The position numbers and the translations under genes were made by a program. A stretch of DNA of 64,000 nt from Iphinoe sp. HA4291-MV1 (GTDB lineage: Bacteria; Cyanobacteriota; Cyanobacteriia; Cyanobacteriales; Nostocaceae), in the NCBI GenBank assembly GCA_019359415.1, contig JAHHHH010000007.1, forward strand, positions 62,001 to 126,000, given 5' to 3'. The notes under the pieces are model-generated. The model ran no database searches. It saw only the letters and a program-made list of their open reading frames with translations, and was not told the origin of the DNA. Positions 1,467 to 63,985 of this stretch are shown in pieces. Each line of letters starts with the position of its first letter. The stretch's first letter is position 1.

Positions 1467-1796
1467 ATGGATTCAGTAAATTTAGTTTGTCATGACTTTT
1501 TTGTGCTTCTTTCCTTCATAGCTTGCATTACTGGTCTATTGTTACTATGGGAGCGTAAGCAGGAAAGGAATAAAGCAGAAGAAGCAGAAGAAACAGAGAA
1601 AATTCTGTTTAGGATGAGCTTTTCTTACTGGCTAGTTTACTGTGTTGCTTTTGCTATCCAAAAAATTGTTTTACCCGACTGGGAAACTATAATGATGACT
1701 TTAAAAATAACGGCGGCACTGTCATATTTTTTAACATTTTCTTGCATCATCAGTTTGCCACTACACAAATTGGCAGTACGTCAAGTTGAAGATTAG
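1467..1796 (+). CDS. Small hypothetical membrane protein
   Basis: A 109-residue protein I do not recognise. It has three likely membrane helices: one near residues 10-27 (FFVLLSFIACITGLLLLW), one near 50-68 and one near 76-98. Between the first two lies a charged loop, ERKQERNKAEEAEE. The ATG at 1467 was preferred over the upstream in-frame TTG at 1395 because GGGAT precedes it at a plausible distance and the extra 24 residues look random. It follows moaE on the same strand by about 170 bases with no sign of a shared function. Confidence 0.55.
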   Translation: MDSVNLVCHDFFVLLSFIACITGLLLLWERKQERNKAEEAEETEKILFRMSFSYWLVYCVAFAIQKIVLPDWETIMMTLKITAALSYFLTFSCIISLPLHKLAVRQVED

Positions 1797-1800
1797 TTAT

Positions 1801-1860
1801 GGAATTGGGAATGGGGAATTGGGCATTGGGCAACGGGAATTGGGCAATGGGCAATAGGGT
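1801..1860. repeat. Short tandem repeat (ATTGGG/CAATGGG units)
   Basis: Imperfect heptamer units of the GGGAATT, GGGCATT and GGGCAAT type are repeated about eight times. They resemble the short tandemly repeated repetitive (STRR) sequences known from heterocystous cyanobacteria. The same unit recurs at 37050-37078 and 39540-39616. Confidence 0.8.
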
Positions 1861-1966
1861 GAAATTTTTTCATTGGAACTGCCTGAACCTGAGCCATCAA
1901 GTCTTTCCGCTCATCTTGCTCAATGCTTAAATTTTAGACTAGTTAGGAGTGCGAAACCCAAAAGCC

Positions 1967-2395
1967 TTAACCTGTCACCAATGAAATCCGTTCAATAATC
2001 GGGCAAATTATATTCTCAAAATTTTCAGGTATCGTTTGCCCACCTGAAAGCATTCCTTCTAATTCTAGTTTGAGGATGAGGAGTTGTTGAATTTGTTCAT
2101 CAATGGCTGTCAGCTTATCTTGCAACTTGATTTTTACATGTTCACATGGTAAGTTACCCCCATCGTGAACATCTAAAAATTCCTTAATTTCTGATAGGGT
2201 CAACTCAAGATTTTGGGCGCGTTTGATAAAGTTCAAGCGAGCCAAAACATCAGAGTTAAACAATCTAAATCCACCTTCGGTTCTACCTGATGCTTTGAGT
2301 AGACCTAGCTCTTCATAATAGCGAATAGTTTTAATCGGTACACCACTTTCCTTAGCAACTGAACCAATAAGTTTTAACTCTTCTTGCACTAACAT
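1967..2395 (-). CDS. MerR-family metal-responsive regulator
   Basis: MerR-family activators twist promoters with overlong -35/-10 spacers when metal binds. The N-terminus has the winged-helix signature (GSVAKESGVPIKTIRYYEEL, residues 11-30), and a long dimerisation helix follows at about 93-120. Candidate metal ligands are Cys84 and His86 (PCEHV) and Cys131 (ICPIIE). This layout is seen in heavy-metal MerR proteins, but the CueR-type C-terminal pair is not obvious. I chose the ATG at 2395 because AAAGGGG sits 5-8 bases upstream; an in-frame ATG at 2425 is possible. It is the last gene of the copper operon and probably acts on the promoter at 5741-5772. Confidence 0.88.
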   Translation of the reverse strand: MLVQEELKLIGSVAKESGVPIKTIRYYEELGLLKASGRTEGGFRLFNSDVLARLNFIKRAQNLELTLSEIKEFLDVHDGGNLPCEHVKIKLQDKLTAIDEQIQQLLILKLELEGMLSGGQTIPENFENIICPIIERISLVTG

Positions 2396-2427
2396 ATTGA
2401 CCCCTTTTATCAGATTTATTATCATAT

Positions 2428-3069
2428 TTATTTATACTGAAACTTGAGATGAGCGCTTTGAGCTACTGTTGCTGAAGGTGCGATGGCACGGAGTGCCCGC
2501 CAGAGGCGATCGCCAGAGGTGATAGCTGTCGAATCCGCAGATTGAACTTCGACGACTCCTCGGAACATATTCATACCACAGGTAAACTCGTATTTGCCGG
2601 GTTTGTCAGGCGTAAACTCAATCGGCGTAACTTGATTAAGCGGTAGTTCTTGAGCAATATGAAAATCGCTTAATCGAACTTCTTCAAGACAGGTGCTCGC
2701 ATCCTTGCGATAGAAGTTCAGCCGTACAGGTTGACCCGCCTGAACCACAATCTGACTCGGTTCATAACCCCCATCCACTATGATTGTAACCTCTTGAATT
2801 CCTGCTTGCGTGGTTGCTTTGCGAGACTTGGGTTTCGCAGCACCGAACCACCACAGTTCTAAACCAATCAATCCCAGTCCACCGAGTGTGACTGCAACCT
2901 TATTCACTAGCGGTTGTTCAATGCGACGAAACTGTCCCGTTTGCTCTGTTTCAGACGGCTGCATTTGGTTCATCTCGTGGGATATTTGTGCAACAACTTT
3001 GCTAGAAGCAATCCCTAACACAAGTCCTAAACTTGCGATACTGCTGATGATTGCTGTTTTGTTCACCAT
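2428..3069 (-). CDS. Membrane-anchored cupredoxin-domain protein
   Basis: A 213-residue protein with an N-terminal hydrophobic segment (about 6-27, signal or anchor), a His/Met-containing stretch (HEMNQMQ, 31-36), a second membrane helix (about 57-77) and a C-terminal cupredoxin-like domain (about 92-176). Possible copper ligands are Cys127, His137, Cys164, Met166 and Met168 (segment TCGMNMFRG). The last 35 residues fall outside the domain and are encoded by repeat-like DNA containing a HIP1 site, suggesting a tail acquired from a repeat. It lies between copA and merR, so a role in extracytoplasmic copper capture or delivery is inferred. AGGAGG precedes the ATG. Confidence 0.85.
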   Translation of the reverse strand: MVNKTAIISSIASLGLVLGIASSKVVAQISHEMNQMQPSETEQTGQFRRIEQPLVNKVAVTLGGLGLIGLELWWFGAAKPKSRKATTQAGIQEVTIIVDGGYEPSQIVVQAGQPVRLNFYRKDASTCLEEVRLSDFHIAQELPLNQVTPIEFTPDKPGKYEFTCGMNMFRGVVEVQSADSTAITSGDRLWRALRAIAPSATVAQSAHLKFQYK

Positions 3070-3097
3070 TTGAAAACCTCCTATGCGAATGCGACAG

Positions 3098-3184
3098 CTA
3101 TGCTAACGCTCCTGAGATTGCGCCTAATAGAAATCCACATCCTGCCAATGTCCCGAAAAATGTTAGCTTCTTGAGCATCATCAT
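3098..3184 (-). CDS. 28-residue hydrophobic peptide with lipobox, in copper operon
   Basis: A tiny open frame (MMMLKKLTFFGTLAGCGFLL, then eight more residues ending GALA) sits between copA and the cupredoxin gene, 24 bases after copA and 28 before the next start. AGGGGA lies directly before the first ATG, and there are three consecutive ATGs. It has a positively charged N-terminus, a hydrophobic core and LAGC, a perfect lipobox, at residues 13-16. It could be a mini-lipoprotein, a single-helix copper-operon peptide, or the remains of a larger gene. I know of no named family. Confidence 0.5.
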   Translation of the reverse strand: MMMLKKLTFFGTLAGCGFLLGAISGALA

Positions 3185-3208
3185 TCCCCTGTGTGACTAC
3201 CAATTCAC

Positions 3209-5467
3209 TTAACCAAGTGTTTTGGGTTGAAAATTCACGAGACGCAACGCATTAGTAACAACTGAAACAGAACTAAACGCCATTGCTGCACCTGCAATGA
3301 TGGGGTTGAGCAGCCAACCGAAGAAAGGGAAGAGAATTCCTGCGGCAATTGGAATCCCTGCCACGTTGTAGATAAAGGCGAAGAAGAGATTCTGGCGAAT
3401 ATTGCGAATTGTGGCACGCGAAAGTTGAATGGCGGTGACAATCAAGAGCAAATCACCAGAGATGAGCGTGATGTCACTAGCAGCGATCGCTATATCAGTT
3501 CCAGTTCCGATCGCCATTCCCACATCGGCTTGAGCTAAAGCAGGAGCATCATTGATACCATCTCCTACCATTGCCACAATTTTGCCCTCAGACTGAAGTT
3601 CCTCGACAATCTCAGCTTTGTGATCTGGGCGAACTTCAGCAAAGACTCGCTTGATGCCAACTTCACGTGCAATGACTTCAGCTGTGCGCTGATTGTCTCC
3701 AGTCAACATTACCACTTCTAATCCCATTTTCTGCAATGTGCGAATTGCGTTTGCAGAAGATGGTTTCACTGCATCGGAAATGCCCATAATTCCTTGAGCT
3801 TTGCTATTTACTGCAATCCAAATCACCGTCTTACCGAGATACTCCAGACGATCCCAATGTTGCTGCAAAGCACCTGTATCAATTCCTAACTCGTTCATCC
3901 AACGATGGGTTCCAATTTGCACCCATTGATTTGACACATATCCTTGCACACCGCTACCAGCGACTGCTTCAAACTCCTGTGAATCAGTGAGTTCTACTCC
4001 CTGAGATTGAGCATATTGCACAACTGCTTCCGCCAGAGGATGTTCTGAATTGCGTTCGACGGATGCTGCAAGGCGCAGGAGATTTAGCTCGTTGCTATGA
4101 GCTGTACCGTTGACAGTTACATAGTCGGTAACGGTGGGCTTACCGTGCGTAATCGTACCTGTTTTATCGAGAATAATTATCTTTAGCTTGTGTGCAAGTT
4201 CCAGGCTTTCAGCGTCTTTGATAAGGATGCCATTTTCTGCTCCCTTTCCAGTTCCCACCATGATAGAAGTTGGCGTCGCTAAGCCAAGAGCACATGGGCA
4301 AGCAATGATCAGCACACCTACAGTGGTCATGAGTGCCATTGTGACATTGCCCATAATGTTGTACCAAATAATGAAGGTGGCGATCGCAATGGTAATGACG
4401 GCAGGCACAAACCATCTAGTCACTTGGTCAGCTAATCGCTGAATCGGTGCTTTGGAACCTTGTGCTTGTTGCACTAACTTGACAATCTGTGCCAAGAACG
4501 TATCTTTTCCTACTCGTGTTGCTCGGAATTTGAAGCTGCCAGTTTTGTTGATGGTGGCTCCAATCACTTCATCACCTGGCTGCTTCTTTACAGGCACACT
4601 TTCACCTGTGACCATTGTCTCATCAACAGTCGAGGAGCCATCAATAATCTGGCCATCCACTGGAATCTTTTCACCCGGACGCACCAGAATAACATCGCCT
4701 TGAATCACTTCGGCAAGTAGGATATCCACCTCTGTGCCGTTGCGAATCACGCGAGCAGTTTTGGCTTGCAAGCCTATGAGTTTACGGATAGCTTCCGAGG
4801 TCTTCCCTTTGGCACGATTTTCCAACAGTCGTCCTAGCAAAATCAGCGTGACAATCAACGCAGCTGCTTCGTAGTACACATCAGCCGGTAGTTCTCTAGT
4901 AGAGAAAAATCCAGGTAAGAAAGTGGGGAAGAGAGAATAGAGATAGGCAGCACCTGTACCAATCGCCACTAACGTATCCATCGTTGCTGTGTGACGTTTC
5001 AGAGCTTTCCAAGCATTGATGAAGAAGGACGCACCAGACCAAAACAGGACTGGCGTCGTCAGCAACAATTGCAGCCAGGGATTATGCAACCACATGGGAA
5101 TAAAGGGAAGCCTCAATCCCGTCATCATCGGTAGCGAACCAATGACCAGAATAGTGCTGATAATACCGCCAACCCAAACTTTCCTGACTAGCGATCGATT
5201 TTCTGCTTGACGTGCCTTTTGTTCTGCATCATCTGTAACAAATAAATCATCGTCTTGCACAGGCACAGCAGAGTATCCTACCGCATCTACCGCATCGCAA
5301 ATCGCTTTTGGGTCAGTTTTTCTAGGATCATAGGTGACGGTGGCTTGCTCTACCCCAAAGTTGACGCTACATTCATTCACACCTGGAACAGAGCGAATTG
5401 CATCTTCAACTGTGTTAGCGCAAGAGGCACAACTCATACCCCGCAGTTTCAGATTCGTGTTTTTCAT
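3209..5467 (-). CDS. copA: Copper-translocating P1B-type ATPase
   Basis: A 752-residue P1B ATPase that pumps Cu(I) across a membrane. In order it has one N-terminal HMA domain with GMSCASC (Cys13 and Cys16), membrane helices from about residue 97, the actuator motif TGESVPV, the channel motif [10 protein letters not shown] (about 388-397), the phosphorylation site DKTGT (Asp at about 433), SEHPLAEA, and the hinge GDGINDAP (about 632). CPC indicates Cu(I)/Ag(I) specificity. It is transcribed after the small metallochaperone gene with a 41-base gap. Cyanobacteria also use PacS and CtaA for thylakoid copper import. The neighbouring cupredoxin and MerR genes favour detoxification, but this cannot be proven here. 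Confidence 0.96.
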
Positions 5468-60745: not shown

Positions 60746-60870
60746 GCATTTCACAAAAAGCAGAGTTATGATCAGCGCTCTCTATTGCCAACGCGATCGC
60801 CTATGGCGGGCACTTCGTGCCAATGCCCTTTGGGCACGCTACGCGAACGCATTTCAGAAAAACTAGAGTG
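60746..60870. repeat. Two copies of a GCATTTCA...CTAGAG repeat
   Basis: Copy a at 60746-60783 and partial copy b at 60849-60870 share GCATTTCA(C/G)AAAAA and AGAGT. A third copy lies at 62917-62953. The words between, near 60786-60845, include two HIP1-like sites and GC-rich repeat text. Confidence 0.75.
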
Positions 60871-61432
60871 TTGTTTTTTTTATCGTACGGGCTATTAGAG
60901 GAGCCTTTTTTTCTAATCCTTGTAGCGTTAAATCTCCATCCAAATAAAGTTGATACCATTGTTGACGCTGGCGCAACACTCGCTCATCATCACGTAACCG
61001 CAACCGTTCCAACGTAAATTCTGCTTTTTGACGTTGTTGCGCAGGAACTTTATCTGTCAATACTAACTGTAGAGAAGGAAGTAGAATTTCAAACCAATCT
61101 TCTCCCAAATCAAAAGGGTCAAGTACTTGGTCATCAAGAGTCCCTTTACTACTATTAATCCAAGCAGAAGCAAAGCGCAAATTACTCCACTCATAAGCCA
61201 AATGACGATAATTTTCACGACTGAGATAATGCTCTACTGTACCAACTGGTTCGTACATGACTGAGTAAGCACAAAGATTATTAAATCCATCAGCTAAATA
61301 ACTTTTGAAAGACGACCAATAATCTGGAGTTCTTTTTTTTGGATCTGGATTTTTTGCCAACCAAGCATTTCCTGGTTATCGCACTTTTTCATTAAATAAA
61401 AGTGGTTCTGGTGGAGGATGAAATGGTATCAT
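60863..61432 (-). pseudogene. HNH-like nuclease of an ATPase/nuclease pair, with in-frame stop
   Basis: The natural start is ATG 61432, four bases after the ATPase stop. The frame reads MIPFHPPPEPLLFNEKVR, a TAA at 61378-61376, then PGNAWLAKNPDPKKRTPDYW and on to the end at 60863 without another interruption. Two conserved-looking regions follow: YLADGFNNLCAYSVMYEPVG and TVEHYLSRENYRHLAYEWSN, then LRFASAWINSSKG, recalling the HNH nuclease (PtuB-type). The zinc cysteines seen in many HNH proteins are reduced to one. Translation could restart at TTG 61360 (165 residues), so activity may remain. Confidence 0.72.
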
Positions 61433-61436
61433 CTAC

Positions 61437-62681
61437 TTAAACCTCTGATAGTCCAGAACTTCTTCTTTCTGCTGTCACTATCCAACGTGGCCAAAATGGG
61501 TCATGTCCGGGTAAAACTCTTTGCAATTCTTGATGGATTTGTGTCTGGCTTCTCAAGTTTTCTGGAAAAGCATCCATATCATCATCACGCATCCATGCTT
61601 CTGCTGCTTCAATGGCAATTTCTGCTTCCTTGGAACGAGCTTGTTTCAGTCCAAAAATTTCTGATGTTAACCATCCAACTGTATCTCCCTGTTTAGACCA
61701 AGGTATCTCATCAAGCCTCACTTCTTGACCTGCTAATTGAAATAAAAATAATCTATCTTCTGACTCATCAAAACCTGGTTCTAAGGATGCAAGAACAAGT
61801 GGAGAGTGAGTCGTTACTAAGGCTTGTATTTTCATTTCAACCTGTAATTCTGTAACGACTTCTAAAATAGCTGGTAAAATCACTCGTTGCCACCGAGGAT
61901 GTAGGTGTGATTCAATTTCATCAATTAATAAAACTATCTGATGAATTGGCTTTTGTTTTCGCAGTTGGGAAGCTTTTGTATGTTCGTACCAAGTCCACAC
62001 CAGTAAATAAGCAAGTCCCAAAATACGCTTCATTCCGGCTGAAGTGTAAATAACAGGAACATTACCGTAAGGTAGATTAACAGTAGGAATATCGCGTATA
62101 TCTTCCACAGAAACTCGCGTTGGTTCCCCCACATTTATCCATTCATCCGGGTGAGGAGCAAGCTTTTCAATCACATTAGAAAAAAGTTGAAATGGATATT
62201 TATTGGGTTGATTTTGCCATGTCACCCAATCTTGAATTAGACCATTACAAAGAACTTTACCCTCTGATTTTAAGCCATTCCAAAGCGTATCTGGAGTAAA
62301 ATTATAAGCATTATCGCGTTTGCGAGTTGGGTCATAAACAGAAAAACCACCATCAACCCGCACATAAATCGCAACCTCTTCTAATGATTGAGGCGTTTGT
62401 AAATTCTGCCATTGTTGTTCGGAAAAATCAAATGAACTTTGATACTCTCTTGTATTTTCTAACGTGCTAACTATTCCTATAATTTTTGGATTTTCTTCTC
62501 TTACTCTTTGGGGATATGCTGGTTGTTCTGCCCAATTTGCTGTCAACACCCACCAAGCAACATCGAGTAAAAAACTTTTACCATTACCGTTATCGCCCGT
62601 GATTATATTGAGTCTATCTGCAAATTCAATATCAAAATGGGAAGCTGGACCAACTTTTTGCAGATGAAGTTCTTTTAACAT
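61437..62681 (-). CDS. AAA/ABC-type ATPase of a predicted defence pair
   Basis: A 414-residue ABC/SMC-like ATPase: an N-terminal MLKELHLQKVGPASHFDIEF, Walker A ITGDNGNGKSFLLDVA (about 27-42), the signature-like VIYTSAGMKRILGLAYLLVW, Walker B IVLLIDEIESHLHPRW, and the H-loop LVTTHSPLVLAS. PtuA of Septu systems and OLD-like ATPases share this order. It overlaps nothing and is followed after four bases by the HNH-like gene. Together they resemble a Septu/PtuAB-type anti-phage module, although homology must be tested. Confidence 0.88.
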   Translation of the reverse strand: MLKELHLQKVGPASHFDIEFADRLNIITGDNGNGKSFLLDVAWWVLTANWAEQPAYPQRVREENPKIIGIVSTLENTREYQSSFDFSEQQWQNLQTPQSLEEVAIYVRVDGGFSVYDPTRKRDNAYNFTPDTLWNGLKSEGKVLCNGLIQDWVTWQNQPNKYPFQLFSNVIEKLAPHPDEWINVGEPTRVSVEDIRDIPTVNLPYGNVPVIYTSAGMKRILGLAYLLVWTWYEHTKASQLRKQKPIHQIVLLIDEIESHLHPRWQRVILPAILEVVTELQVEMKIQALVTTHSPLVLASLEPGFDESEDRLFLFQLAGQEVRLDEIPWSKQGDTVGWLTSEIFGLKQARSKEAEIAIEAAEAWMRDDDMDAFPENLRSQTQIHQELQRVLPGHDPFWPRWIVTAERRSSGLSEV

Positions 62682-62828
62682 TGGACTGTCTCAAACAAAC
62701 CTACACTCATAGTTCTACATTGTACGGCAGGGGTTTTTCTCCCTTGCTAAGAGTATTCTCAACGCGATCGCCTGACTTGAAAATGAATAAGGGGCAATGG
62801 GTTTGACAGACTGTATTTCTTTTGTGGT

Positions 62829-62912
62829 ATGTGGGAGCAAGGTTTAACTGATGCAGTAACTGCCGATTTGCATTTTGTTCAAGCGGGTTTTCGGGCGTTG
62901 TTGGGGGAGTAA
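62829..62912 (+). pseudogene. PIN-domain toxin C-terminal relic
   Basis: The frame encodes EQGLTDAVTADLHFVQAGFR then ALLGE and a stop. This matches the C-terminus of VapC-type PIN proteins (LTDA.TAD.HF.QAGF..LL), including the last catalytic Asp. Nothing upstream continues the domain, so the other three quarters of the gene are lost. Confidence 0.7.
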
Positions 62913-62916
62913 TTTC

Positions 62917-62953
62917 GCATTTCACAAAAACTAGAGTTATGATGGCGCTCACT
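62917..62953. repeat. GCATTTCACAAAAACTAGAG repeat copy c
   Basis: A near-identical copy of the repeat at 60746-60783, in the same orientation. The two copies bracket the ATPase/HNH operon and the PIN relic, and copy c lies just before higB. Confidence 0.8.
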
Positions 62954-62967
62954 ATATTTCATATATC

Positions 62968-63342
62968 ATGGTCGATAGGGAAAATATTCTAGAAGTGCCT
63001 TTACGCCCTCTTGTCTGGATGGGCGACTCTCGTAAAAATATCCGTGAATTTCCCTCAGAAGTGCGTGCATCGGTAGGGTATGCGCTGCAATTAGTCCAAG
63101 TAGGGGAAACACCAACGGATGCCAAGCTTTTTAAAGGGGTAGGAAGCGGCGTGTACGAAATCGTCAAACGCTACGATACCGACACCTATAGGGCAGTTTA
63201 CGCTGTTAAAATTGGGAAAAAGGTCTATGTCCTACACGCTTTTCAAAAGAAATCAAAGCAAGGTATCAAAACTCCACAGACTGATATTAACTTGATTAAA
63301 CAACGCTATAAGGACGCGCTAGCTAGAGAGGAACAACCATGA
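62968..63342 (+). CDS. higB: RelE/HigB-type toxin (Gp49-like, DUF891)
   Basis: A 124-residue protein with PLRPLVWMGDSRKNIREFPS, VRASVGYALQLVQVGETPTD, KGVGSGVYEIVKRYDTDTYR and KKVYVLHAFQKKSKQGIKTP. This is the HigB-like mRNA-interferase fold. The stop overlaps the antitoxin start as ATGA, with toxin first as in higBA. The target is presumed to be ribosome-bound mRNA. Confidence 0.93.
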   Translation: MVDRENILEVPLRPLVWMGDSRKNIREFPSEVRASVGYALQLVQVGETPTDAKLFKGVGSGVYEIVKRYDTDTYRAVYAVKIGKKVYVLHAFQKKSKQGIKTPQTDINLIKQRYKDALAREEQP

Positions 63343-63665
63343 CACAAGAACCTGTTTTTGAAGAAAGCAGCGGAAACGTATTCGCTGACCTCGGTTTAGA
63401 GGATGCAGACGAACTTTTTACCCGTGGTAAGATAGGGATTGTGGTGCTCCGCCTCCTGAAAGAACGCAACCTAAAACAGCGCGAAATCAGTGATCTTCTC
63501 GGTATTCCACAGCTAGAAGTCTCTTATTTGATGAAAGGAGAGTTTCAACGGTTCAGCGAGGGCAAACTACTTGTTTTCCTCAAGCGACTTGATACGGAAA
63601 TCACCTTGCATCTTCGCCCCCGGAATGCGGGAAAACAAGCTGCTGAAACTGTGGTGTCGCTATAG
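63339..63665 (+). CDS. higA: HigA-type XRE-family antitoxin
   Basis: A 108-residue protein with an acidic N-terminus and an HTH domain: VVLRLLKERNLKQREISDLL followed by GIPQLEVSYLMKGEFQRFSE. It binds and neutralises the upstream toxin and represses the operon. The overlap of four bases with the toxin gene supports translational coupling. Confidence 0.92.
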   Translation: MTQEPVFEESSGNVFADLGLEDADELFTRGKIGIVVLRLLKERNLKQREISDLLGIPQLEVSYLMKGEFQRFSEGKLLVFLKRLDTEITLHLRPRNAGKQAAETVVSL

Positions 63666-63739: not shown

Positions 63740-63985
63740 ATGAACAAAAGAGTAACGGCTGTATTTGATGGCGATGTTTTACATCCGGATGCACCCTTGG
63801 ATTTAAAACCGAACACGCGCTATGTGATTATAATTCAAGAGTTTAGCGAACCACCTGTAGCAGGTGATGCTTGGGATGTGCTGGAGGCGATAACAGGAAC
63901 AATAGAAGCACCGCCGGATTGGTCTAGTGAGCATGACCATTATTTATACGGTACACCCAAACGGGAGACAGAAGGCACGGAATGA
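63740..63985 (+). CDS. DUF104-type antitoxin-like protein
   Basis: An 81-residue protein: KRVTAVFDGDVLHPDAPLDL followed by KPNTRYVIIIQEF, the AF2212/DUF104 antitoxin pattern, with an acidic C-terminus. A HIP1 word lies just upstream (63719-63726). The stop overlaps an ATG (63982), the typical coupling to a downstream PIN toxin gene. ATG 63740 or GTG 63737 may be used. Confidence 0.78.
   Translation: MNKRVTAVFDGDVLHPDAPLDLKPNTRYVIIIQEFSEPPVAGDAWDVLEAITGTIEAPPDWSSEHDHYLYGTPKRETEGTE

Follow-up and report, generated by a model that had tools for sequence, protein, structure and literature searches.

Septu is a two-gene defence system in which, to judge from intact systems among the E. coli relatives, PtuA would act as the ATPase partner and PtuB as the nuclease, the pair cutting DNA or tRNA-Tyr and thereby halting phage growth. 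As described in two reports, defence by an E. coli Septu needs both the PtuA ATPase motifs and the PtuB HNH motif (PMC13096335), Septu EcB88 cleaves tRNA-Tyr (PMC13096335), and another Septu cuts DNA (PMC11555353). The PtuAB effectors of type I-A retrons (Ec78/Eco7 and Ec83/Eco4) belong to the same protein superfamilies, and the account of retron-Eco7 states that PtuA and PtuB together are toxic and arrest growth, either one alone having no such effect (PMC11555353). PtuA-like ATPases are also paired with other nucleases, as in ptuXYZ, according to a further report (PMC11980606).

The window analysed here is a 64,000-nucleotide stretch from the cyanobacterium Iphinoe sp. HA4291-MV1, a member of the same family as Nostoc. 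It contains on its minus strand what is, as far as sequence can tell, very probably a Septu operon with an intact PtuA and a recently disabled nuclease, one case of a repeated loss that takes the nuclease first and leaves PtuA intact. The ptuA gene (61437..62681, minus strand) encodes 414 residues without interruption. Its product, proposed in the initial annotation to be an ABC/SMC-type ATPase, is matched near end to end by the PADLOC PtuA profile PDLC00307 (E 6.3e-182), yields the Pfam domains AAA_21 and AAA_15 in profile searches, and carries Walker A, Walker B and signature motifs in its translation (GDNGNGKS from residue 29, SAGMKR from residue 214, and LLIDEIESHLHP). The PtuA stop is followed by four bases (GTAG) and then, on the same strand, by the ATG of ptuB at 61432. 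This second frame (60863..61432, minus strand) had been taken for an HNH-like nuclease gene, which agrees with the match of the PtuB profile PDLC00348 to codons 25-189 (E 6e-63, profile positions 26-190 of 198) and with the comparison to relatives; a Pfam search of PtuB gave nothing above cut-off. The HNH core (VEHYLS...SNLRFA, H68 to N84; 61181..61231, minus strand) retains both HNH-type residues, with the same 16-residue spacing as between H75 and N91, which are reported as required in Septu EcB88 (PMC13096335). Both proteins thus match the PADLOC PtuA1/PtuB1 families end to end or nearly so, confirming the suggested Septu-like identity. As in most intact Septu relatives, ptuB lies directly after ptuA, and the operon retains both the H-N spacing and the Walker motifs. 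Unlike in those relatives, ptuB is broken at codon 19, and we therefore filed the locus as an inactivated member of Septu type I.

A retron of the Ec78 kind, the alternative that had been raised, can be set aside. The NCBIfam Ec78 PtuA and PtuB models score 64.1 bits (cut-off 500) and 23.8 bits (cut-off 150), falling far short in both cases, and no reverse transcriptase match was found on the contig that carries the operon (C1), the three RVT_1 matches of the genome lying on C30, C31 and C32. PtuA matches 14 distinct PDB sequences, several of which are retron effectors, with PtuA 8ee4 another. The locus resembles ptuXYZ in combining a PtuA-like ATPase with a nuclease partner, and differs from it in that the other nuclease partners described there (PMC11980606) are not seen here. 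We conclude that the operon is a stand-alone (non-retron) Septu, ptuA-ptuB.

The interruption of ptuB is an in-frame TAA (61376..61378, minus strand), past which no further stop interrupts the frame until its end at 60863; translation bears out the original observation of a stop at codon 19 with the rest of the frame intact. When codon 19 was compared in relatives, a conserved sense codon was found in 18/18 aligned intact loci, and 12 of PtuB columns 1-24, column 19 included, were invariant among these 18. In a wider set of relatives column 19 varies in some, yet every aligned locus except the window has a sense codon there. Since columns 1-24 are conserved and column 19 is sense in relatives, the frame began at the ATG at 61432, the N-terminus of PtuB is real, and the TAA interrupts a conserved protein. 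The same invariant columns speak against the idea that nothing upstream of 61360 is conserved. To date the break, we performed a three-way codon comparison of the window with L044 and L100. Window-specific codon changes in ptuB comprise 2 amino-acid-changing and 15 silent ones (5 and 12, respectively, for those specific to L044), so that ptuB was evidently under normal constraint until recently and its break appears to be young. This low number of amino-acid changes, together with the conserved N-terminus including column 19, favours the recent inactivation that had been envisaged.

The initial annotation had also considered reinitiation at a TTG, codon 25 of ptuB (61358..61360, minus strand), 15 bases past the stop, which would produce a shortened PtuB of 165 residues and a weaker but working Septu. 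The sequence AGGA does lie nine bases upstream of this TTG, the remaining frame is strongly conserved by the codon counts given above, and H68 and N84 are kept; that much of the proposal stands. The restart product would nevertheless be without 24 residues, half of whose columns are the invariant ones, and many relatives have the same coding letters at this point, so that the TTG is an ordinary Leu codon and was not selected as a start. TTG is moreover a weak start codon. We accordingly regard a restart as quite improbable. We regard it as very improbable that a mistake in sequencing or assembly created the TAA in an ordinary working Septu operon, even though the genome is a single draft assembly of 140 contigs and constraint on ptuB appears normal. 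The TAA sits in an ungapped alignment to relatives and is therefore a substitution, not a homopolymer indel, and among relatives it is PtuB that is damaged rather than PtuA, although PtuA is 2.2-fold longer and lies on the same contigs; random errors would not produce such a bias. The reading of a Septu operon with a genuinely disabled nuclease is thus retained. Complementation by a second copy was considered and dismissed: at E 0.001 or better, the genome itself has a single PtuA match and a single PtuB match, and the search turned up no further copy of either.

Defence systems turn over rapidly, and to our knowledge it has rarely been measured which of their components is lost first. Related loci were identified through similarity to the window proteins in 386 genomes of the phylum, 218 of the family and 388 of the order, along with 36 loci from a further search; the family and order sets were searched with both PtuA and PtuB queries. 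The resulting 155 rows collapsed to 70 distinct loci, and 32 more were examined, 7 of them repeats, adding 25 for a total of 95 distinct loci (L185 is the same locus as L010, and L184 repeats L183). Both genes were intact in 55 loci, including L047, whose PtuA was flagged for a stop at position 412 that proved to be its natural end. Only PtuB was damaged or missing in 16 loci from 13 genomes (the window, L029, L038, L039, L040, L042, L045, L046, L049, L054, L057, L165, L185, L186, L196 and L206), only PtuA in none, and both genes in 12 (L017, L056, L114, L118, L119, L123, L157, L158, L160, L161, L164 and L210). The remaining 12 were left unclassed: seven at contig edges (L025, L030, L058, L153, L159, L189 and L209), four fragments (L154, L155, L156 and L212), and L163. 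Searches of the phylum, family and order sets with the PtuB query found no locus that pairs a complete PtuB with a broken PtuA; the nearest case is L119, where a deletion has taken most of PtuA and, from PtuB, only the first 11 codons.

The ptuB lesions are of many kinds: single stops at codons 19, 46, 91, 138 and 167 (the last a late stop, in L186), an insertion of ~110 bp, a deletion of ~480 bp, truncations and absence of the whole gene. No remnant of PtuB was detected by tblastn in L165 and L206, which might be older losses. Stop-codon reassignment is disfavoured as an explanation, since the five single-stop lesions fall on five different codons and use all three stop types, which speaks against recoding. 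Long-type Septu (PtuA ~650 aa) was tried as a comparison and given up for having too few loci, which lie outside the 95; in the listed loci its PtuA is open in 16/16 and a PtuB match extends over most of the length in 15, while the PtuB match detected in G245 spans just 79 residues, a possible PtuB-only loss. In five genomes that have two or more PtuA-intact copies of this Septu type, PtuB is either broken in all of them (G538, G541 and G546) or intact in all of them (G542 and G510). Six loci (L024, L028, L031, L036, L070 and L092) carry insertions of ~430-610 bp with similar ends between ptuA and ptuB, both genes being open. In L163, PtuA is fused in frame at residue 402 to what by eye resembles a transposase (854 aa; positions 1556-4120), and PtuB is gone.

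We then asked how far the order of loss departs from chance. Because the same lesion is present in L038 and L057, these two were counted as one event, and the 16 loci correspond to about 15 events, with each species taken as independent. Copies within G541 have a lesion in common and may have recombined, and one patch of replaced nucleotides is common to L038 and L040, from different genomes, so that the number of independent events may drop by one more. PtuB makes up 189 of the 603 codons, and 31% of first hits would be expected to fall on it. With 15/15 events PtuB-first, the binomial probability is 2.8e-8 by gene length and 6.1e-5 at 50:50; if L119 is leniently taken as PtuA-first (15/16), the one-sided values are 3.1e-7 and 2.6e-4. 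In 37 intact loci, ptuB has 5.6 homopolymer runs per kb and ptuA 3.1, a 1.8-fold difference in density, and gene length therefore understates slippage hits on ptuB, making the 50:50 test the safer one. In this Septu type the nuclease gene seems to be lost first. Literature searches found no earlier report of PtuB-first loss of Septu, and the pattern across relatives is new as far as we know.

The same density of runs could be read as a sign that ptuB is a mutational hot spot and that its earlier damage owes nothing to selection, a reading we consider rather unlikely. In its favour, several of the small frameshifts take the form of short patches that recur at the same codons across genera. Against it, the other lesions are diverse, as listed above, only one small lesion (in L038) lies by eye within a homopolymer run, and ptuA of L160 has a patch too. 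We continue to favour repeated loss of the nuclease first. As to the patches themselves, most of the small frameshifts in L038, L040, L042, L045, L057 and L160 differ from plain indels; 3-6 nucleotides are replaced by a stretch one nucleotide longer (+1 in each one seen), within ptuB in all but L160, where the patch is in ptuA. At ptuB codons 106-107 nearly the same patch occurs in two genera whose ptuB genes are otherwise well diverged. The ptuB of L038 has five lesions in all, among them a one-base loss in an A run and a stop at codon 5, and a patch site of L038 coincides with the break point of L030. Hairpin templating of the patches was examined by eye; it fits two sites and fails at the others.

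The state of PtuA after the loss of its partner was assessed by dN/dS against the nearest intact relative. Fourteen loci with damaged or missing PtuB were measured, namely 12 of the 16 PtuB-only loci (L185, L186, L196 and L206 being left out) and the unclassed L030 and L163; their PtuA values range from 0.08 to 0.29, as against 0.09-0.49 in 36 intact loci. Relaxation of PtuA after PtuB loss was not significant in pooled three-way counts (125:189 vs 107:198 in intact partners, Fisher p=0.25). For ptuB, dN/dS in intact loci ranges from 0.03 to 0.58, and its early loss is therefore not clearly a result of weaker constraint. The ten broken ptuB genes that were measured have no excess of amino-acid change (42:90 vs 41:85, p=1), which indicates that the breaks are generally recent.

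These measurements bear on the possibility that PtuA is kept for a job that does not involve PtuB, such as partnering another nuclease or acting as a repressor. It would accord with a PtuA that is open in 16 loci without a complete PtuB and under constraint in the 12 of those 16 that were measured, including L038 with its five ptuB lesions, and with the pairing of PtuA-like ATPases with other nucleases, as described for ptuXYZ (PMC11980606). In general, however, ptuB was broken too recently for PtuA to have decayed, so that a normal-looking PtuA is by itself no proof of a separate job, and both genes are damaged in 12 loci. We consider such a job unlikely, and prefer to see PtuA as simply left intact when ptuB is lost first through stops, frameshifts, insertions or deletions. 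In the window, no full PtuB would be made from the operon, PtuA would be without its nuclease partner, and no Septu defence would result.

The likely driver of these losses would be the burden that an active PtuAB nuclease imposes under low phage pressure. This idea is weakened by the published description of retron-Eco7 (PMC11555353), since losing either gene should relieve a cost that only PtuA and PtuB together impose. A cost of the active pair thus predicts loss of either gene, and the PtuB-first order needs a further cause. As conjectures only, this could be an additional role of PtuA, a lone PtuA that is harmless and a lone PtuB that is harmful in this clade, or a hot spot in ptuB. It is a tentative proposal, one we hold with less than even confidence, that the inactivation of cyanobacterial Septu follows a fixed order: PtuB would be lost repeatedly and recently, partly via recurrent site-specific patch lesions at the same codons across genera, with PtuA kept through a PtuB-independent role or with PtuB loss being adaptive when phages are scarce. 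A two-gene system with nuclease-first losses offers a simple setting in which to test how bacteria disarm their immunity, and surveys that count only PtuA would overestimate how common working Septu is in cyanobacteria.

The genomic setting of the operon was analyzed by genome comparison and repeat searches. The ptuA-ptuB pair lies in a chromosomal island flanked by two paralogous genes for transporter substrate-binding proteins, and the sister genome G386 has 235 bp at the site where about 4.6 kb are found here. Close PtuA proteins are absent from all 7 other genomes of the genus searched (0/7; four have weak ATPase matches), and the Septu cassette was therefore probably acquired. No match was found among 50,697 phage records. 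Nine plasmid records match PtuA; the cyanobacterial ones are a close relative in Allocoleopsis (66%) and a partial match in Annamia (33%).

A 25-nt direct repeat occurs four times in the 7.36-Mb genome (up to 3 mismatches), in every case on the plus strand and within this island. One copy lies on the outer side of ptuB (60748..60772, plus strand), another upstream of ptuA (62919..62943, plus strand) and one just past the window end; further decayed copies are found in the island. By sequence comparison, a decayed copy of the locus-specific repeat (60847..60875, plus strand) abuts ptuB and supplies its last codons, the final residues of PtuB being unlike those of relatives. An indel in the A run at the 3' end of ptuB was considered for this difference and rejected in favour of a junction with the repeat copy. 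The 25-nt repeats border the ptuBA cassette and toxin-antitoxin modules. Positions 62797-62917 hold, by eye, a 3'-end remnant of a toxin-like gene, which we take to be of PIN type, together with a repeat, duplicating an open copy that starts at 63983. Divergent from ptuA, at 62968-63665, are a Gp49-like (RelE/HigB-type) toxin gene and a helix-turn-helix antitoxin gene.
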